DNA of 27,715 nucleotides, taken from the IMG/VR virus record IMGVR_UViG_3300044941_000063, positions 1-27,715 of that record; one strand, written 5' to 3'. The DNA is from a virus. Below, piece by piece: positions 2-12,401 of this stretch. The notes beneath the pieces were generated by a model. The model was not told the origin of the DNA and ran no database searches. It was given only the letters and a program-made list of their open reading frames with translations. Position 1 is the first letter of the stretch. Every line of letters begins with the position of its first letter. Both the position numbers and the translations under genes were made by a program.

Positions 2-1699
2 GACGATCCGGGTCCAACGGCGCCGCCCGACGGTCTGCCGCCCGATGACAGCGTGAACGAGACGGCGCGCGCCTGTGCCGCGCTGCCGCTGAACGACCTT
101 GGCAACGGGCGGCGGCTGCAGGCGCATTTCGGAGAGGACCTGATCTGGGTTCCGCGCGTGGGCTGGCATGTCTGGGACGGGACCCGCTGGGCCGCCGATC
201 CCGACGCCATTGCCGTGCGGCGCGTCGCGCAGGAGCTGGGGCCGAAGATCGCGGCCGAGGTCTGGCATATCGCGCTGTCCGACATCGAGATGGCGCGCCT
301 GGCCGAACGCGGGAAGCTGGCGACCGACCTTGCCACGGCCGAGGCCGACGAACCGCCGGACATGGCGCGGATCAGCCAGTTGCGCGCGCAGATCGCGGAT
401 CTGACGGTTCTGGCCAAGCGCCTGACCGCGCTGCGGCGCGAACACCGCAGCTGGGTTCGGTCGTCGGGCAATTCCGGTCGGATCGACGCCGCGATCAAGG
501 AAGCGGGCATCGGCCTGGCGCGGCGGCTGGACGAACTGGACGCCGATCCGCTGGTCGTGAACACCGCCACAGCCACGCTGCGCTTCACCGTCTCGGGCGG
601 GCCGGGGCAGGGATACAGCCGGACCGCAGCCATCGAGGTGCTGCCGCACGACCGCGCGCACCTTCTGTCGAAGATCGCGGGCGCCACCTACGACCCGCAG
701 GCGCGCGCCCCGGCGTTTCACGCATTCCTCCGCGAGGTGATGCCGGATGACGAGGTGAGGTGGTTCCTTCAGCGCTGGTTCGGGCTGTCGATGCTGGGTA
801 TCCGCGAGCAACGGCTGGTGTTCCTGTATGGCGGCGGCGCCAACGGCAAGTCGGTGTTCGTCGACCTGATGGCCCGCATCCTCGGCGACTATGCGGCCAC
901 GGCCAAGATCGAATCCCTGACCGGAAAGAACCGCCGATCAGGCGCGGAAGCCACCCCGGATCTGGTGCCCCTCATCGGGGCGCGGATGGTGCGGGCATCG
1001 GAACCCGAGGAAGGCGAGCGCCTGCAGGAAGGCAAGATCAAGGAACTGACCGGCGGAGAGCCGATCCTGGTGCGCGCCCTGAACGCCGATTTCGTCGAGG
1101 TGCACCCGCACTTCAAGCTGACGATCAGCGGCAACCACAAGCCCGAGATCCGGGGCACCGACGACGGAATCTGGCGGCGCGTGTCGCTGGTGCCCTGGGA
1201 TGTGACGATTCCGCCCGAACGACGCGACCCGACGCTGGGGGAAAAATTGTTCGCGGAAGCGCCCGGCATCCTGAACTGGCTGATCGACGGCGCCATTTCC
1301 TACCTGGAAGGGGGCTTGCAGGAACCCGAGGCCGTCAAGACCGCGACGCAGGAATTCCGCGAGGAATCGGACCCCGTGGGCGCCTTCCTGGTGGCGGCCT
1401 GCGTCATCACCGGGTCCGAGAACGACAGCATCGGCGCGCGCGAGCTGGGCGAGGCCTTCAACTACTGGCTGTCCGAGAAGGGCGAAGGCATGTGGAAGCC
1501 GCGCACCGTCGCCCTGCGGCTGAAGGACAAGGCGCGGCGCTGGAAGGCCCCGAACGGCAAGTCCTTCGTGGAACGCAAGGCCAGCACCATGGCCTATGAC
1601 GGCATCCGCCTGCAGGACCTGTTCCGCGAGCGCTTCGACCGACGTCCGCGCGACCATCGCCGCCCAGCCGATGATGCCGACGATCGGGAGGCGTTTTGA
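2..1699 (+). CDS. D5/P4-family phage primase-helicase (5' partial)
   Basis: DNA-replication protein of the phage/plasmid primase family (D5_N plus superfamily 3 helicase), expected to unwind and prime at the phage origin. Visible signs, numbered from the GTG at 53: a Walker A motif GGGANGKS near residues 260-267, a D5_N-like stretch before it (HAFLREVMPDDEVRWFLQRW), the SF3 motif around SGNHKPEIRGTDDGIWRR with the sensor Asn and arginine-finger pair, and a C-terminal winged-helix-like tail. The frame stays open upstream of the GTG to the window edge, so the real start and any N-terminal primase domain probably lie outside; the GTG at 53 has no clear Shine-Dalgarno. The next gene starts inside the stop codon (TGATG), so the two are probably translationally coupled. 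The family call is firm; how much is missing at the N terminus is not known. Confidence 0.9.
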   Translation, partial: DDPGPTAPPDGLPPDDSVNETARACAALPLNDLGNGRRLQAHFGEDLIWVPRVGWHVWDGTRWAADPDAIAVRRVAQELGPKIAAEVWHIALSDIEMARLAERGKLATDLATAEADEPPDMARISQLRAQIADLTVLAKRLTALRREHRSWVRSSGNSGRIDAAIKEAGIGLARRLDELDADPLVVNTATATLRFTVSGGPGQGYSRTAAIEVLPHDRAHLLSKIAGATYDPQARAPAFHAFLREVMPDDEVRWFLQRWFGLSMLGIREQRLVFLYGGGANGKSVFVDLMARILGDYAATAKIESLTGKNRRSGAEATPDLVPLIGARMVRASEPEEGERLQEGKIKELTGGEPILVRALNADFVEVHPHFKLTISGNHKPEIRGTDDGIWRRVSLVPWDVTIPPERRDPTLGEKLFAEAPGILNWLIDGAISYLEGGLQEPEAVKTATQEFREESDPVGAFLVAACVITGSENDSIGARELGEAFNYWLSEKGEGMWKPRTVALRLKDKARRWKAPNGKSFVERKASTMAYDGIRLQDLFRERFDRRPRDHRRPADDADDREAF

Positions 1700-2324: not shown

Positions 2325-2342
2325 GGGAGGATAGGGAGGATA
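2325..2342 (+). repeat. GGGAGGATA array 1 (two units, + orientation)
   Basis: Two abutting copies of GGGAGGATA at 2325-2333 and 2334-2342, followed by a diverged single copy (GGGAGGATG) at 2356-2364. This is the outer left member of the four-array block. Confidence 0.85.
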
Positions 2343-2420
2343 ATCAGCGCGGTACGGGAGGATGGCGTGCCCAAGGGGTGCGGGGGAAACTGGTTTCAGA
2401 TCATGCGCTTACGGTGCGCC

Positions 2421-2450
2421 ATGGGAGGATAGGGAGGATAGGGAGGATAA
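2421..2450 (+). repeat. GGGAGGATA array 2 (three units), left arm of a 30-bp inverted repeat
   Basis: Three abutting copies at 2423-2431, 2432-2440 and 2441-2449. Together with two flanking bases on the left and one on the right, this is the exact reverse complement of 2525-2554, giving a perfect 30-bp inverted repeat with a 74-bp spacer. The G-rich strand (paired GGG and GG tracts separated by ATA) could also form a two-tetrad G-quadruplex; that is inference. Confidence 0.9.
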
Positions 2451-2524
2451 TTTCAGCCCCCGCGTGCGCGCGTATTCGTTCTGACAGGGAACAGGGTGCA
2501 ACCGTTCTCGCGCGTAGGTCGGAT

Positions 2525-2554
2525 TTATCCTCCCTATCCTCCCTATCCTCCCAT
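2525..2554 (-). repeat. GGGAGGATA array 3 (three units, inverted), right arm of the 30-bp inverted repeat
   Basis: Three abutting copies of TATCCTCCC at 2526-2534, 2535-2543 and 2544-2552. This is the perfect inverted partner of array 2. Confidence 0.9.
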
Positions 2555-2620
2555 ATCCAAAGAAACAGGGACCAAGAACCAGGGTTTGCATGGCAAAAGG
2601 TCCGCCTTGCGACCCGAATT

Positions 2621-2649
2621 TATCCTCCCGCTATCCTCCCTATCCTCCC
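2621..2649 (-). repeat. GGGAGGATA array 4 (three units, inverted, with a 2-bp insertion)
   Basis: Copies of TATCCTCCC at 2621-2629, 2632-2640 and 2641-2649, the first separated from the second by two extra bases (GC). This is the outer right member of the block. Confidence 0.85.
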
Positions 2650-2721: not shown

Positions 2722-3450
2722 ATGACCAGGCAAGACAGCGAGAAGTGGTGGAAGGTGCCAGGACCGGAGCGTGTGCGCGCCGAGGCGGCCCGGGTCGAGG
2801 CGATGTTGCGCGCGGCGGCCCTTCCGGTCGACTGCGGTCCCGAGATGCCCGTCGCCCCGGCGCGCGGGCCGTTCCGCGTGTTCGAGCCGCGCGTCACCGC
2901 GCCGGGCGGTCGCCTCGTCCACGACGGCTATCGCGGCCCGGGCGAGGCGCGGCATCGCAAGGCCATCGCGCGGCTGGATGTCTTCGACGTGATGACCGCA
3001 CAGGCGCGCCGCCGGTCCAAGGATGCGCCGCCCCTGTTCACGGCGGCGCAGGTGGCCGCGGGGCGCGCTTACGCCGAGCTGACCGAGCGCGCCGGAGCCA
3101 GCGGCTACAGCGGCACATCGCTCGAGGTTTCCGCGGTTCGTGTGCGCGGCGCGGGCAATGGCGACTGGATCGAAGCGCGCCTGCGCGACAGCCGTCGCCT
3201 CGACCGGATGCGCGCCGCCATCGGGCTCGACTATGCGCTTGGCCCGTCAGACCTGCGCCGTCACATGGACCGGGGTTTGCGCCACGCGATCCCGGTGCGC
3301 GTGCTGGTCGACGCGGTGTGCCTGGATGGCCTGACGATCACCGAGATCATCCGCGCCCGGGGATGGCCAGCGCGGACGACCACGATTGCCTCAGTGCGCG
3401 CTAGCCTTTGTGCGGCCCTGGACCGCATCTACGACAGCGGCGCGGTCTGA
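2722..3450 (+). CDS. Putative helix-turn-helix regulator upstream of the late genes
   Basis: A 242-residue protein, probably a DNA-binding regulator. The C-terminal 45 residues (from VLVDAVCLDGLTITEIIRAR on) read as a sigma-region-4-like helix-turn-helix: a helix, the turn around LDGLTITEI, then a second helix within TTTIASVRASLCAALDRIY. The N-terminal half is basic and rich in Arg, with no recognised domain. I chose the ATG at 2722, giving MTRQDSEKWWK, because it follows a GAGG at 2711-2714. The frame also runs back to 2590, but that extension translates the GGGAGGATA repeats and is unlikely to be protein. Its position between the replication genes and the packaging genes fits a late-gene activator. 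A small-terminase-like DNA-binding role is less likely, since a Nu1-like gene follows. Confidence 0.6.
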   Translation: MTRQDSEKWWKVPGPERVRAEAARVEAMLRAAALPVDCGPEMPVAPARGPFRVFEPRVTAPGGRLVHDGYRGPGEARHRKAIARLDVFDVMTAQARRRSKDAPPLFTAAQVAAGRAYAELTERAGASGYSGTSLEVSAVRVRGAGNGDWIEARLRDSRRLDRMRAAIGLDYALGPSDLRRHMDRGLRHAIPVRVLVDAVCLDGLTITEIIRARGWPARTTTIASVRASLCAALDRIYDSGAV

Positions 3451-5420: not shown

Positions 5421-5487
5421 CATCGCGCCCGGTGTCCGCAAACGTGGACCCCTGACGCGCTCCGGGCTTGGCAGGCCGGGCGCGATG
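5421..5487 (+). other. Structured leader before the inserted gene
   Basis: A perfect 12-bp inverted repeat CATCGCGCCCGG (5421-5432) / CCGGGCGCGATG (5476-5487) encloses a second hairpin, GTCCGC-AAAC-GTGGAC (5434-5449), a six-pair stem with one G-U pair and a four-base loop. A further complementary pair is GAGCGC (5401-5406) / GCGCTC (5457-5462). The outer right arm ends 10 bp before the ATG at 5498 and abuts its Shine-Dalgarno, so folding could hide the ribosome site. A terminator for the upstream transcript is the alternative; no T-tract is present. Confidence 0.45.
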
Positions 5488-5497
5488 GAGAAATGAC

Positions 5498-6385
5498 ATG
5501 CATCCACAGACAGAAAAGTGCTGGCAGTACTACAACGGCAAAAGCGGCGGACACATGATCGCGAAAGGCCTCCTGACCCCGGCTCAGTACGAGGTTAACC
5601 AAAAGATCGCTGAAGTTGCTGCGCGCTTAGCAAAGCACGAACTGACGAACCCGCATGCGCAAGGTGAGAATTTCATTTGGCCAGAAACAGCCCAAATGCC
5701 CTGTGACTCGCTGGTGCTGGTTATAAACTACGGTAAGGGCGCTGGAGTTGTCCACTGGCTGCAGCGTGACCAAGGCAGAGTTCTGGTCTGGTGGTTTGCA
5801 CCGTCAGGAGAAGCCTTTTGCCTAGGCGGTTTTGTGCCGGGTACGGACCTGATGTTTAGAAATCGGGCCGCAACGCCGGATACTCGGACGCAAGCTGAAA
5901 AGGACAACTGGCTCGTATTCGTTGCTATGATTCTTTCGCTGGTTGTGGAGCACCGACGAGTCGACGTATCAAGCGTCACTCCGAACCGGCAAATCCGCAA
6001 ACGTCAGGAGGCCCTAACAGGGAATCCTGCCGCGGCGTGGTTCCGTGTCTCGTGGACGCTTGGCAAAGCGGTTCGGGCCAAAGGTGGCAATAACAAGAGC
6101 CATGTAACGAAGATTGCTCTCCACTGGTGCCGCGCCCACTGGCGCATCTGTAAGCCAAGTGCACGGGGCGCAACTTGGCACGCAGATCGCGGCGGCTGGT
6201 ACACGTGGGTAAAGGACTGCTGGAGGGGTCATCCCGATAACGGAGTTCGGCTGCACCACTACGAGCCGAGGTTCGTGGATGATCCTCGGCCGCAGGGTCG
6301 CGCCGTCGCACCACATCGCTACTCGCTTGCGGCTCTAGACGCTGCAAAGGCAGAGGCGCTGCGGCTGGCAGGGTTTGCCGCCTGA
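5498..6385 (+). CDS. Unknown protein between the terminase genes, possible moron
   Basis: A 295-residue protein I do not recognise. It begins MHPQTEKCWQYYNGKSGGHM and is rich in Trp, His and Cys. It has a central half with alternating hydrophobic strands (VLVWWFAPSGEAFCLGGFV). The C-terminal section contains THVT-like HVTKIALHWCRAHWRICKPS and GGWYTWVKDCWRGHPDNGVR, which recalls a C-terminal 'HW.RGHWR ... W...WRGHP' pattern I have seen in other uncharacterised phage proteins. Base composition is visibly more AT-rich than both neighbours and codon choice is less biased, which suggests recent acquisition. The ATG at 5498 has GGAG at 5487-5490; an upstream TTG at 5468 falls inside the hairpin leader and is unlikely. 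It ends one base before the large-terminase ATG. A role in host takeover, superinfection exclusion or defence is only inferred from its moron-like setting. Confidence 0.7.
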   Translation: MHPQTEKCWQYYNGKSGGHMIAKGLLTPAQYEVNQKIAEVAARLAKHELTNPHAQGENFIWPETAQMPCDSLVLVINYGKGAGVVHWLQRDQGRVLVWWFAPSGEAFCLGGFVPGTDLMFRNRAATPDTRTQAEKDNWLVFVAMILSLVVEHRRVDVSSVTPNRQIRKRQEALTGNPAAAWFRVSWTLGKAVRAKGGNNKSHVTKIALHWCRAHWRICKPSARGATWHADRGGWYTWVKDCWRGHPDNGVRLHHYEPRFVDDPRPQGRAVAPHRYSLAALDAAKAEALRLAGFAA

Positions 6386-8761: not shown

Positions 8762-10297
8762 ATGAACCTGCTGGATCGGATGATCGCGGCGGTCGCCCCG
8801 TCCCGCGCCCTGTCGCGCGTGCGCAGCCGGGTGGCCCTGAACATCCTGCGCCAGACGACGGCGCATTACGACAGCGCCACCTCGGGCCGTCGCGGCCAGT
8901 CGTGGCGCGCCTCGCCCACGGACGCCGACGCGGCGGCCGGACGCCGGGCGCGGCTGGCCTACATCGCCCGCGACATGGTGCGCAACACGCCCTTCGCGTT
9001 CCGGGCGCAACAGTGCATCGCGGCCAACGTGGTCGGTGACGGGATCATTCCGAAGGTGATCGACCTGCCAGCGGAAGATTCCACCGGCGCGCGCGAGATC
9101 CGCGCGCGGGCGCTGCGGCTGATCGAACAGCACCTCGACACCACGGCCATCGACGCCGACGGCCGCCAGAACCTTTATGGCCTGCAACGGCTGGTGATGA
9201 ACACCGTGGTGGATTCCGGCGAGGCGCTGATCGTCCGGGTCGAGGCCGACGACCTGTCGCTGCCGCTGCCGTTCCAGCTGCGGGTGATGGAACCCGATCA
9301 CCTCGATGTCGGGATGGATGGCCGAATCTCGCCCGAAGGGCACTACGTCCACGAAGGCATCGCCTACGACGACCGGGCCCGCCGGGTGGGCTACTACCTC
9401 TACGACGAACACCCCGGCAGCAACAGCTGGCGCATGGGGCCGGTGTCGCGGGTGCGCTCGCGCTTCGTTCCCGCCGACCGGGTGCTGCACATCTACCGGC
9501 AGGACCGGCCAGGGCAGATGCGCGGTGTTTCGTGGTTCGCCGGGGTTGCCTTGAACCTGCAGGATCTGGGGGACTATCAGGACGCTCAGATCATGCGGCA
9601 GAAGCTGGCGGCCTGCTTCACCGCCTTCCGCAAGGTCGGCGCCGACGGCGGCGCCCGCGCGGACGAGGAAATCGGTGCCACGCTGTCGCCCGGCCTGATC
9701 CAGGACCTGGGACCCGACGAGGACATCGTGTTCGCAGACCCGCCCGAAGTGTCGGGATACGAAGAATTCACCCGTGCCGTGCTGCGGTCCGTCGCGGCGG
9801 GCATGGGCATCACCTATGAGGCGCTGTCGGGCGACCTGTCGAACGTCAACTTCTCGTCGGCCCGCATGGGCCGCAACGAGATGGAGCGCATTATCACGGG
9901 ATGGCAGAAACTCATGCTGATCCCGCAGATGCTCGACCCGATCGGCCGCTGGTTCCTGCAGTTCTGGGCGATGCGCTACCCGCGCGACGCCGCCGCGATC
10001 GAAGGCGCCCGCGTCACCTGGACGACGCCGCATCACATCCTGGTGGACCCGACGCGGGAAATTCCGGCGCTGCGCGATGCGGTCCGCGCGGGCTTTGTTT
10101 CCTGGCAGGATGTCATCCGCCAGCTGGGCGAGGACCCGGAGCGCGTGATCGAGGAACACATTCAGGATCGCGAGGTCGCCGACAGGAACGGGCTGGTCTT
10201 CGACAGCGATGCCCGGAATTCGGTGTCGCTGGCGACCCGCCCGCCGGACGATCCGGCGCCTGCGGACCGCCAACAGGGAAGGGGCAACAATGCCTGA
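8762..10297 (+). CDS. Portal protein, lambda gpB family
   Basis: A 511-residue portal protein that forms the dodecameric DNA channel at one head vertex and docks the terminase. The N-terminal segment YDSATSGRRGQSWRASPTDA and the following RARLAYIARDMVRNTPFAFR with NVVGDGIIPK are characteristic of gpB-type portals. The conserved SNVNFSSARMGRNEMER and the C-terminal region DPTREIPALRDAVRAGFVSW also match the family. Length is usual (533 in lambda). The ATG at 8762 lies three bases after the gpW stop. Its last eight bases overlap the ATG of the protease-capsid gene. Confidence 0.95.
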   Translation: MNLLDRMIAAVAPSRALSRVRSRVALNILRQTTAHYDSATSGRRGQSWRASPTDADAAAGRRARLAYIARDMVRNTPFAFRAQQCIAANVVGDGIIPKVIDLPAEDSTGAREIRARALRLIEQHLDTTAIDADGRQNLYGLQRLVMNTVVDSGEALIVRVEADDLSLPLPFQLRVMEPDHLDVGMDGRISPEGHYVHEGIAYDDRARRVGYYLYDEHPGSNSWRMGPVSRVRSRFVPADRVLHIYRQDRPGQMRGVSWFAGVALNLQDLGDYQDAQIMRQKLAACFTAFRKVGADGGARADEEIGATLSPGLIQDLGPDEDIVFADPPEVSGYEEFTRAVLRSVAAGMGITYEALSGDLSNVNFSSARMGRNEMERIITGWQKLMLIPQMLDPIGRWFLQFWAMRYPRDAAAIEGARVTWTTPHHILVDPTREIPALRDAVRAGFVSWQDVIRQLGEDPERVIEEHIQDREVADRNGLVFDSDARNSVSLATRPPDDPAPADRQQGRGNNA

Positions 10298-12401
10298 CGA
10301 AATCCATCTCTACGGCACGGTCGGCGGGTCCTTCTGGGATGAGGACTACTTCACCCCGGCGCAGGTCCGCGACCAGCTTGCGCGATGTTCCGGGCCGGTG
10401 ACCGTTCGCATCAACTCGGGCGGCGGCATCGCGACCGACGGGCAGGCGATCTACACGATGCTGCGCGATTACGACGGCGAGGTGCATGTCGTCATCGACG
10501 CGGTGGCCTACTCGGCCGCCAGCCTGATCGCCATGGCGGGTGACACCATCACCCTCAGAAGGGGTGCGACCGTGATGATCCACGATCCCGCCCAACCCTG
10601 GACCGAAGGGCGCGGGACCGAGGACGACCACCTGAACCTTGCGCGCGGGTTGCGCACGATCTCGAACGCCTATGCCGATATCTACGCGGCGCGGGCTGGG
10701 ATCACCCGCGACGCCGCTCGCCAGCTCATGCGCGCCGAAACCTACTACGACGGCGCCGAGGCCGTCGCGGCAGGCTTTGCCACCGCGTTCGAGACCGAAG
10801 GCGCCGCCCAGGTCGCGGCGCGGTTCGATTACCGCATCTACGCCCACGCCCCGGCGCACCTGATCACCGGCAAGCCGCCCCGGCGGCCGGCCGCATCGAA
10901 GATGGCCGTCCTGGCCATGATCGCGGGACTTCCCGCACCCACGGCAAAGGAGCCGACCATGACGAAGAAGGCAAAGGCCGCGGGCGCGGCCACCGAAGAC
11001 GAAGACCTGCGCGAGGACATGGAGGTCGAGGAAGACCCGACCCCCGACGACGAGGAAGACGAGTCCGCGCGCGCGCAGGACGACAAGGAACCCACCGCCG
11101 AGGATGACGAAGAAGATCCCGCGGCGATGGAGGACGAGGACGACGAGGATGACGAACCCGAGGCCCGCGCCCGGGCGATCACGGCGCTGTGCGCCCGCCT
11201 TGGCCGTCCCGCGTCGGAAGCCGACGCCATGATCCGCAGGGGCCTGTCGCCCGAGGCGGCGGGGCGCACCATCATTCGCACCCTCATGCAGGAGAACCCG
11301 ATGACCGGCAAGCGATCGCCCGCATCCCCGACCGCGCGGATCATCCGCGACGAACGGGCCACCCGCCGCACCGGGATGGTCGCGGCGCTGGCGGCCCAGC
11401 TGACCGGCGCCAGCACGGTGGCCTCGGTGGCCCGGCCCTACATGTCGATGTCGCTGGTCGAGATGGCGGCGGACTGCATCGGCCACCGCGGCCCGCTGCG
11501 CACGCCGGGGCAGAAGCTGCAGGTGTTCATGGACGCCTCGCACTCGACGTCGGACTTCCCGGCCATCTTCGAGAACGCCCTGAACAAGGTCCTGCTGGAA
11601 CGCTACCAGGTGGCGGAGCCGACCTACCGGCTGATCTCGCGCCGCCGCGACTTCACCGACTTCCGCGCCCACCCGATGGTGCGGGCCGGTGACTTCCCGA
11701 AACTGCAGCCGATTGCGGAAACCGGCGAGATCAAGTTCGGCACCATCGGCGAAAACCGCGAGACGGCGATCCTGCAGTCCTTCGCGGTCGGCTTGCGCAT
11801 CACCCGTCAGATGATGATCAACGACGAGATGGGCGCGATCGACCAGGTGCTGGGCGACTACGGCCAGATGATCGCCGACTTCGAGGAGGAACGCTTTTAC
11901 CAGTTCTTCACCACTGCCAACCTCGCCGACGGTGTTGCGGTGTTCCACACCAGCCGCAACAATGTGGCAGGCACGGCATCGGCCATCACGGTCGCCTCGG
12001 TCGCGCTCGGCCGCGCGGCGATCCGCAAGCAGACCACGCTCGGCGGCCAGAAGATGAACATGGCGCCGTCCATCATCCTGGTCGGGCCGAACAAGGAAAC
12101 CGAGGCGGAACAGCTGGTCGCCGCGATCCAGCCGCAGCAGGCCGGCAACGTCAACCCGTTCTCGGGCCGCCTGCAGGTGGTCGTCACCGCGCAGATCACC
12201 GACAACTCCTGGTATCTGCTGGCGGGCGCCGACCGGCCCGGCGGCGCCTGCTTCGTCCACGGCTTCCTCGACGGTGGCGCGGCCCCGCGCATCCGGACCG
12301 AGGAAACCTTCGGGACGCAGGGCGTCGCGATGACGGTGGAGCATGACTTCGGTCTTGGCGCCATCGACTTCCGCGGCGGCTACCGCAACGCGGGCGCCTG
12401 A
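10290..12401 (+). CDS. Prohead protease-scaffold-major capsid fusion protein
   Basis: A 703-residue polyprotein. Residues 1 to about 200 are a ClpP/S49-type protease: oxyanion loop INSGGG (42-46), nucleophile Ser75 in AYSAASLIAMAG, and His98 in VMIHDPAQ. Residues about 224-300 are extremely acidic (many Glu/Asp runs) and then helical, like a scaffold. Residues 338-703 are the major capsid protein, with FEEERFYQFFTTANLADGVA and SIILVGPNKETEAEQLVAAI. The ATG at 10290 follows AGGGAAGGGG (10275-10284). In lambda these jobs are split between C, Nu3 (nested in C) and E. Two internal in-frame ATGs with good Shine-Dalgarno sequences lie at the scaffold and capsid boundaries. The protein is probably cut by its own protease during head assembly. 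Confidence 0.92.
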   Translation: MPDEIHLYGTVGGSFWDEDYFTPAQVRDQLARCSGPVTVRINSGGGIATDGQAIYTMLRDYDGEVHVVIDAVAYSAASLIAMAGDTITLRRGATVMIHDPAQPWTEGRGTEDDHLNLARGLRTISNAYADIYAARAGITRDAARQLMRAETYYDGAEAVAAGFATAFETEGAAQVAARFDYRIYAHAPAHLITGKPPRRPAASKMAVLAMIAGLPAPTAKEPTMTKKAKAAGAATEDEDLREDMEVEEDPTPDDEEDESARAQDDKEPTAEDDEEDPAAMEDEDDEDDEPEARARAITALCARLGRPASEADAMIRRGLSPEAAGRTIIRTLMQENPMTGKRSPASPTARIIRDERATRRTGMVAALAAQLTGASTVASVARPYMSMSLVEMAADCIGHRGPLRTPGQKLQVFMDASHSTSDFPAIFENALNKVLLERYQVAEPTYRLISRRRDFTDFRAHPMVRAGDFPKLQPIAETGEIKFGTIGENRETAILQSFAVGLRITRQMMINDEMGAIDQVLGDYGQMIADFEEERFYQFFTTANLADGVAVFHTSRNNVAGTASAITVASVALGRAAIRKQTTLGGQKMNMAPSIILVGPNKETEAEQLVAAIQPQQAGNVNPFSGRLQVVVTAQITDNSWYLLAGADRPGGACFVHGFLDGGAAPRIRTEETFGTQGVAMTVEHDFGLGAIDFRGGYRNAGA
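10947..10961 (+). promoter_or_regulatory. Internal ribosome site and start for the scaffold part
   Basis: AAGGAG (10947-10952) lies six bases before an in-frame ATG at 10959, codon 224 of the fusion, exactly where the protease ends and the acidic scaffold-like segment (MTKKAKAAGAATEDEDLRED) begins. This is the layout of lambda Nu3 inside C. Use in the cell is inferred. Confidence 0.5.
11290..11303 (+). promoter_or_regulatory. Internal ribosome site and start for the capsid part
   Basis: AGGAG (11290-11294) lies six bases before an in-frame ATG at 11301, codon 338 of the fusion, at the point where capsid-like sequence (MTGKRSPASPTARIIRDERA) starts. Translation from here would give a 366-residue capsid protein without protease or scaffold. 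Confidence 0.5.

Follow-up and report, generated by a model that had tools for sequence, protein, structure and literature searches.

The window, which is the whole stretch of 27,715 nucleotides analysed here, contains a mirrored block of short repeats downstream of a helicase gene. The question raised by this locus is what the block does for the phage, and whether its layout, its company, and its relatives point to replication, to transcription, or to another function.

Layout of the repeat block

The sequence-only reading described eleven exact copies of one 9-mer, arranged in four clusters about 100 bp apart, two forward and two inverted and symmetric about position 2487, with the inner pair forming a perfect 30-bp inverted repeat around a 74-bp spacer. 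All of these numbers hold. Exact copies of GGGAGGATA start at positions 2325, 2334, 2423, 2432, and 2441 on the plus strand and at 2526, 2535, 2544, 2621, 2632, and 2641 on the minus strand, and one near copy is found at 2356 (Table 1). The cluster starts are spaced 98, 103, and 95 bp apart in the order forward-forward-reverse-reverse, and the inner arms (2421-2450 and 2525-2554), which make up the perfect inverted repeat, also form an imperfect inverted repeat of 44 bp. Allowing at most one mismatch, 14 matches to GGGAGGATA were obtained versus 2.8 expected, with a maximum of 8 in 100 shuffles, and the exact tandem of two units (18-mer) has no further copy in the whole window record.

The block is intergenic, as stated previously. 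It lies in a gap (2286-2721) between the end of orfB at 2285 and the likely ATG of orfC at 2722, which is preferred as the start because the relatives of orfC are homologous only from about residue 56 of the 2590 ORF onward. Further downstream, a 305-amino-acid ORF (5468-6385) with no PHROG match is located between the small and large terminase genes, and a ClpP-like head maturation protease and the major capsid protein are fused in a single 730-amino-acid ORF (10209-12401).

Table 1. Coordinates of the helicase gene and of the elements of the repeat block in the window
Feature	Position	Strand	Evidence
D5-type (SF3/AAA+) helicase gene, putative initiator; N-terminus cut by the contig edge	2..1699	+	Pfam, PHROG, AlphaFold2 (AF2), structure match
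Predicted winged-helix domain at the helicase C-terminus (about residues 442-546), proposed to read the iteron	1324..1640	+	AF2 model; co-variation with the iteron
Outer left iteron pair, 2 x GGGAGGATA	2325..2342	+	Exact matches
Third outer left iteron GGGAGGATG, conserved +31 position	2356..2364	+	One mismatch
G box GGGGTGCGGGGG, left arm only	2375..2386	+	GGGG-N1-3-GGGG in 32/41 left arms vs 4.2 expected, 0/41 right arms
TCA-N-TTR element, ahead of the inner left triplet	2401..2411	+	28/41 left arms vs 3.7 expected
Inner left iteron triplet, 3 x GGGAGGATA	2423..2449	+	Exact matches, inverted-repeat arm
Central spacer, 76 bp between iterons, alternating GC on the left side	2450..2525		27/41 left vs 1/41 right
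Inner right iteron triplet, inverted	2526..2552	-	Exact matches, inverted-repeat arm
Right inter-cluster stretch, lower GC, candidate unwinding region	2553..2620		Mean GC 0.46 in right arms, 0.59 at the matching place in left arms
Outer right iterons (3), inverted	2621..2649	-	Exact matches

Conservation and architecture of the array

A search of IMG/VR for the exact 18-mer retrieved 31 loci, with some near-duplicates among the contigs. A D5-type helicase accompanies the 18-mer in 27 of the 31 virus contigs (25 on the locus and 2 elsewhere on the contig); the sequence-only reading had suggested that such arrays be sought beside D5-type genes in related phages. Nearly all of the 31 loci have forward-forward-reverse-reverse clusters about 100 bp apart, and the two-by-two inversion, which had been regarded as unusual, is the rule across related phages. 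The block was also matched at the DNA level in phages Pan4, Mae-JY02, Mel-JY03, Nsp-JY21, and Sc-Yong805-1, with no feature annotated under it in four of the five, and blocks with other repeat units occur at comparable positions in AmM-1, RcapNL, RR1-A, and RcRhea. The host family of one relative was covered with 395 genomes, and the exact 18-mer was found in only one of them, where it belongs to a prophage with the helicase alongside; arrays scattered in unrelated host genomes, which had been named beforehand as evidence that would speak against the reading, were not seen. The genomes of Pan4 and Nsp-JY21 have one array each, and no second cluster of the unit was detected at one mismatch in these two complete genomes or in the window. 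No description of the array was found in the literature searched, and a search with the 9-mer returned unrelated matches only, including primers.

Pan4, Mae-JY02, Mel-JY03, Nsp-JY21, and Sc-Yong805-1 bear names of cyanobacterial hosts, yet their helicases and putative origins are like those of Rhodobacterales prophages. GTA-like genes are annotated in Pan4. The true host of these cyanobacterium-named phages may be an alphaproteobacterium in the cultures.

Arrays were also sought independently of the unit by a de novo scan for 9-mers of any sequence that form tandem repeats on both strands (score of at least 3) in the DNA 3' of 106 to 108 nonredundant helicase genes; the loci in these comparisons were mostly chosen via the helicase. 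Both-strand arrays at a period of 9 occurred in 53 of 108 loci, with none at periods of 10 to 15 and none in 6,480 shuffles (0/6480). As a position control, arrays were found just 3' of the helicase gene in 54 of 106 cases, upstream of it in 0 of 90, inside it in 0 of 105, further down in 4 of 93, and beyond that in 0 of 83. About half of the helicase homologues are without a clear array at one mismatch, and many of these show one at two mismatches, where the chance level is higher.

The 9-mer differs by phage (GGGAGGATA, GGGAGGCTA, GGGAAGCTA, GGGACGATA, GGGCCTGAA, GGACAGCAA, GGCCTGAAC, and GGGCCGAAA), and the spacing is kept. In 41 loci, the offsets common to both arms are -27, -18, and -9 for the inner units and about -124, -115, and -94 for the outer units, and most arms contain five or six units. 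In RcapNL and a few loci, an outer-inner distance of 108 replaces the usual 97 to 98, a gain of about one helical turn. The central spacer ranges from 64 to 111 bp across 49 loci, and no clear 10.5-bp pattern of helical phasing was observed among these lengths. The spacer is not strongly AT rich, with a GC content of 0.55 at its ends, compared with 0.46 in the right and 0.59 in the left inter-cluster stretch. Despite the mirrored iterons, the block has a direction, since the G box and the alternating GC are present only on the left and the right arms have lower GC. An extra unit on the opposite strand recurs about 26 to 27 bp ahead of the outer right pair in several phages and in a plasmid of Methylobacterium currus.

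The left-arm G box is a G-rich element separate from the iterons and is perhaps a primase or strand signal. A G-quadruplex element formed by the G-rich strand, as the sequence-only reading suggested, is not supported because the layout persists in several relatives whose units lack GGG, such as GGACAGCAA and GGCCTGAAC.

The M. currus plasmid (unnamed3, 46 kb) has a mirrored GCGAGGGTT array just 3' of a helicase homologue, which is the sole replication gene in an incomplete gene table that lists no terminase, portal, or capsid gene. This array was found after seven plasmids had been inspected, and shuffles of the stretch, which was picked after being seen, yielded none in 500 (0/500). An array on a plasmid without listed phage genes agrees with an origin but not with a late-gene switch. 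The 9-bp scan revealed no array beside the other plasmid homologues (Planctomyces, Thermaerobacter, Parageobacillus, Bradyrhizobium p131_1, and Mesorhizobium), and plasmid DNA searched with the block gave no match. The M. currus plasmid also carries a full type I-E CRISPR-Cas set.

The helicase and its C-terminal domain

The gene next to the block, previously taken for a primase, is better assigned as a D5_N/SF3 helicase, the primase being a separate upstream gene in relatives. Its product (2..1699) matches Pfam D5_N (1.8e-18) and DUF5906 (1e-9) as well as the DNA primase family of PHROG (7e-130), and the Walker-type motif residues G277, G279, N281, G282, K283, and S284 are invariant in 86 homologues. 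A separate primase-type gene (DUF7146) is located slightly upstream of the helicase in the relatives Pan4, Pthi1, and RcapNL, and two of these three genes also have Toprim and Zn-ribbon matches. The block begins 625 bp 3' of the helicase stop in the window, with two small ORFs between, and 0 to 100 bp from it in most relatives.

The AlphaFold2 model of the helicase (pLDDT 92.7) has a predicted winged helix at its C-terminal end, with the elements H458-466, E476-478, H479-492, H500-513, E523-526, and E530-533. The best VIA structural match of the model is the SaPI5 primase-helicase (7om0; Z, 27.8), poxvirus D5 was also matched, and the helicase profile matched P4 alpha (HHalign probability, 97.5). 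The P4 winged-helix structure is absent among the fold matches listed for the helicase and was counted for neither side. Three features of the self-loading initiator-helicase class are seen here: the element encodes what its homology indicates to be an SF3/D5-type AAA+ helicase, a C-terminal winged-helix domain is predicted with high confidence, and the iterons lie 3' of the gene for this helicase, close to it in most relatives.

With the other helicase regions removed, the distance between iterons tracks the distance between C-terminal domains (partial Mantel p of 0.001 to 0.01, and of 0.001 to 0.1 when all data sets are considered), and in the first of these analyses the other regions did not correlate with it. 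The effect is modest (r of about 0.15 to 0.3) and varies with the data set, and the permutations leave some phylogeny in. In one subset, the AAA+ core tracks the iteron as well as the C-terminus does, and the N-terminal part of the helicase does so nearly as well when a larger set and simpler distances are used. Among the columns associated with the iteron, 499, 505, and 508 fall within or next to the predicted recognition helix and 524-530 belong to the wing; core position 317 is also associated, probably via one clade. The C-terminus keeps its iteron signal when orfC is controlled (p 0.0005), whereas the orfC signal is lost when the C-terminus is controlled (r -0.015, p 0.56). Iteron divergence follows the C-terminal domain better than the other parts tested, though modestly, which is support rather than proof that this domain reads the iteron.

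Proposed function and known systems

The conserved layout, the position 3' of the helicase, the constant company of this gene, and its homology to self-loading initiator helicases all argue for the origin or initiator-binding site that the sequence-only reading had among its proposals. On these comparisons, it is highly likely that the block is a cis-acting replication element of the phage, either an origin or a P4-crr-like part of one. In the best reading, it is very probably an iteron origin of the P4 crr or SaPI ori kind for a predicted self-loading helicase. The D5/SF3 helicase would bind the 9-bp iterons through its C-terminal winged helix, and each arm, with about six iterons (three outer and three inner), would collect one helicase hexamer, possibly at one iteron per subunit. 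Because the arms are mirror images, two hexamers may load in head-to-head orientation, either at the central spacer or within the right arm with its lower GC. Once loaded, they would melt the duplex, and synthesis would be started, probably in both directions, by the Toprim-type primase encoded separately upstream. GC skew was uninformative, with no switch at the array in Pan4 and Nsp-JY21. The more specific idea that each arm is a six-site hexamer dock (6 + 6 giving a double hexamer), and that winged helix and 9-mer form a diverging code separating replication specificities, is put forward tentatively and could well prove wrong.

Within the origin reading, the block could instead be a P4-crr-like accessory, which binds the helicase and is needed for replication while initiation takes place at a second site. 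P4 crr lies at exactly the matching place 3' of alpha, with ori about 4.5 kb off, but the single cluster in complete Pan4 and Nsp-JY21 at one mismatch speaks against this variant, which we consider rather unlikely. Much less probable is late-transcription control, also proposed in the sequence-only reading, in which the arrays would be operators for orfC (2722-3450), a putative DNA-binding protein. Members of the orfC family (42 aligned relatives) are encoded between the block and the HNH/terminase genes. Of 54 array loci, 30 have orfC after the array; the 24 without it rest on tblastn, which may hide remote homologues. Neither a Pfam nor a PHROG match was obtained for the 42 members, nor a PDB fold match; the orfC model consists mainly of helices and weakly resembles, in structure, an RcRhea protein encoded at the equivalent position as well as DUF6456 and sigma-region-4-like phage proteins, and orfC is possibly a late regulator. 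However, the block has no promoter or terminator match, the relation of iteron distance to orfC disappears when the helicase C-terminus is controlled for, and a similar array is found on the plasmid without listed phage genes, all of which make such a switch unlikely.

The remaining explanations are more improbable still. In a hairpin reading, the 28-bp inner inverted repeat would act as a structured RNA, a terminator, or a cruciform. Compared with shuffles, the inner segment does fold much more stably (z -9.2), but any inverted iteron pair would fold likewise; the outer clusters and the tandem period of 9 bp are left unexplained by a hairpin, a T-run is absent, and the Rfam matches are animal miRNA families below gathering scores, so we give this reading hardly any credence. 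A parS-like partition site or a recombination site of a phage-plasmid is equally far-fetched: some relatives are circular plasmids or phage-plasmids, but the constant companion of the array is the helicase rather than ParB or an integrase, and the unit co-varies with the helicase C-terminus.

This probable iteron origin provides a candidate start site of replication for a wide range of temperate phages, most of them from Rhodobacterales. The matched helicase C-termini and iterons are a natural series in which swaps and compatibility tests are ready-made, which makes origin recognition by the initiator helicase and double-hexamer loading directly testable, and the system could give small replicons for alphaproteobacteria.

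Among known systems, poxvirus D5, papillomavirus E1, and AAV Rep have the SF3 helicase fold in common with the window helicase. To our knowledge, no iteron array is known for poxvirus D5. The structure matches include mpox E5, whose structure 9im3 is a head-to-head double hexamer. Papillomavirus E1 reads its origin through its N-terminal domain (PMC7581432).

P4 has a helicase of the same superfamily, a cis region directly 3' of the alpha gene, and short type 1 iterons in both orientations with pair starts 9 bp apart. However, P4 crr consists of two 120-bp direct repeats with the iteron GGTGAACA, whereas the window block is mirrored and has another unit; alpha has its own primase, whereas the relatives of the window block have a separate primase gene; and P4 has a separate ori about 4.5 kb away, whereas Pan4, Nsp-JY21, and the window have no second cluster. 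The block is therefore not that of a P4 replicon proper.

The iterons of SaPIs are short repeats in two sets, which in a SaPI-type ori flank an AT-rich stretch, and the window block differs in its 9-bp units, mirrored arms of about six, and left-only G box. SaPI Rep/PriRep nevertheless includes the best structural match, the SaPI5 primase-helicase, and has its iteron origin just downstream of rep (PMC7581432). SCCmec Cch2 has only three 5-bp iterons and lacks mirrored arms, but it too is a D5-type helicase, and its C-terminal domain binds the repeats that lie just 3' of the operon (PMC7581432). SaPI Rep and SCCmec Cch2 thus both bind iterons just downstream of their genes via the C-terminal domain (PMC7581432), as is proposed here for the window helicase.
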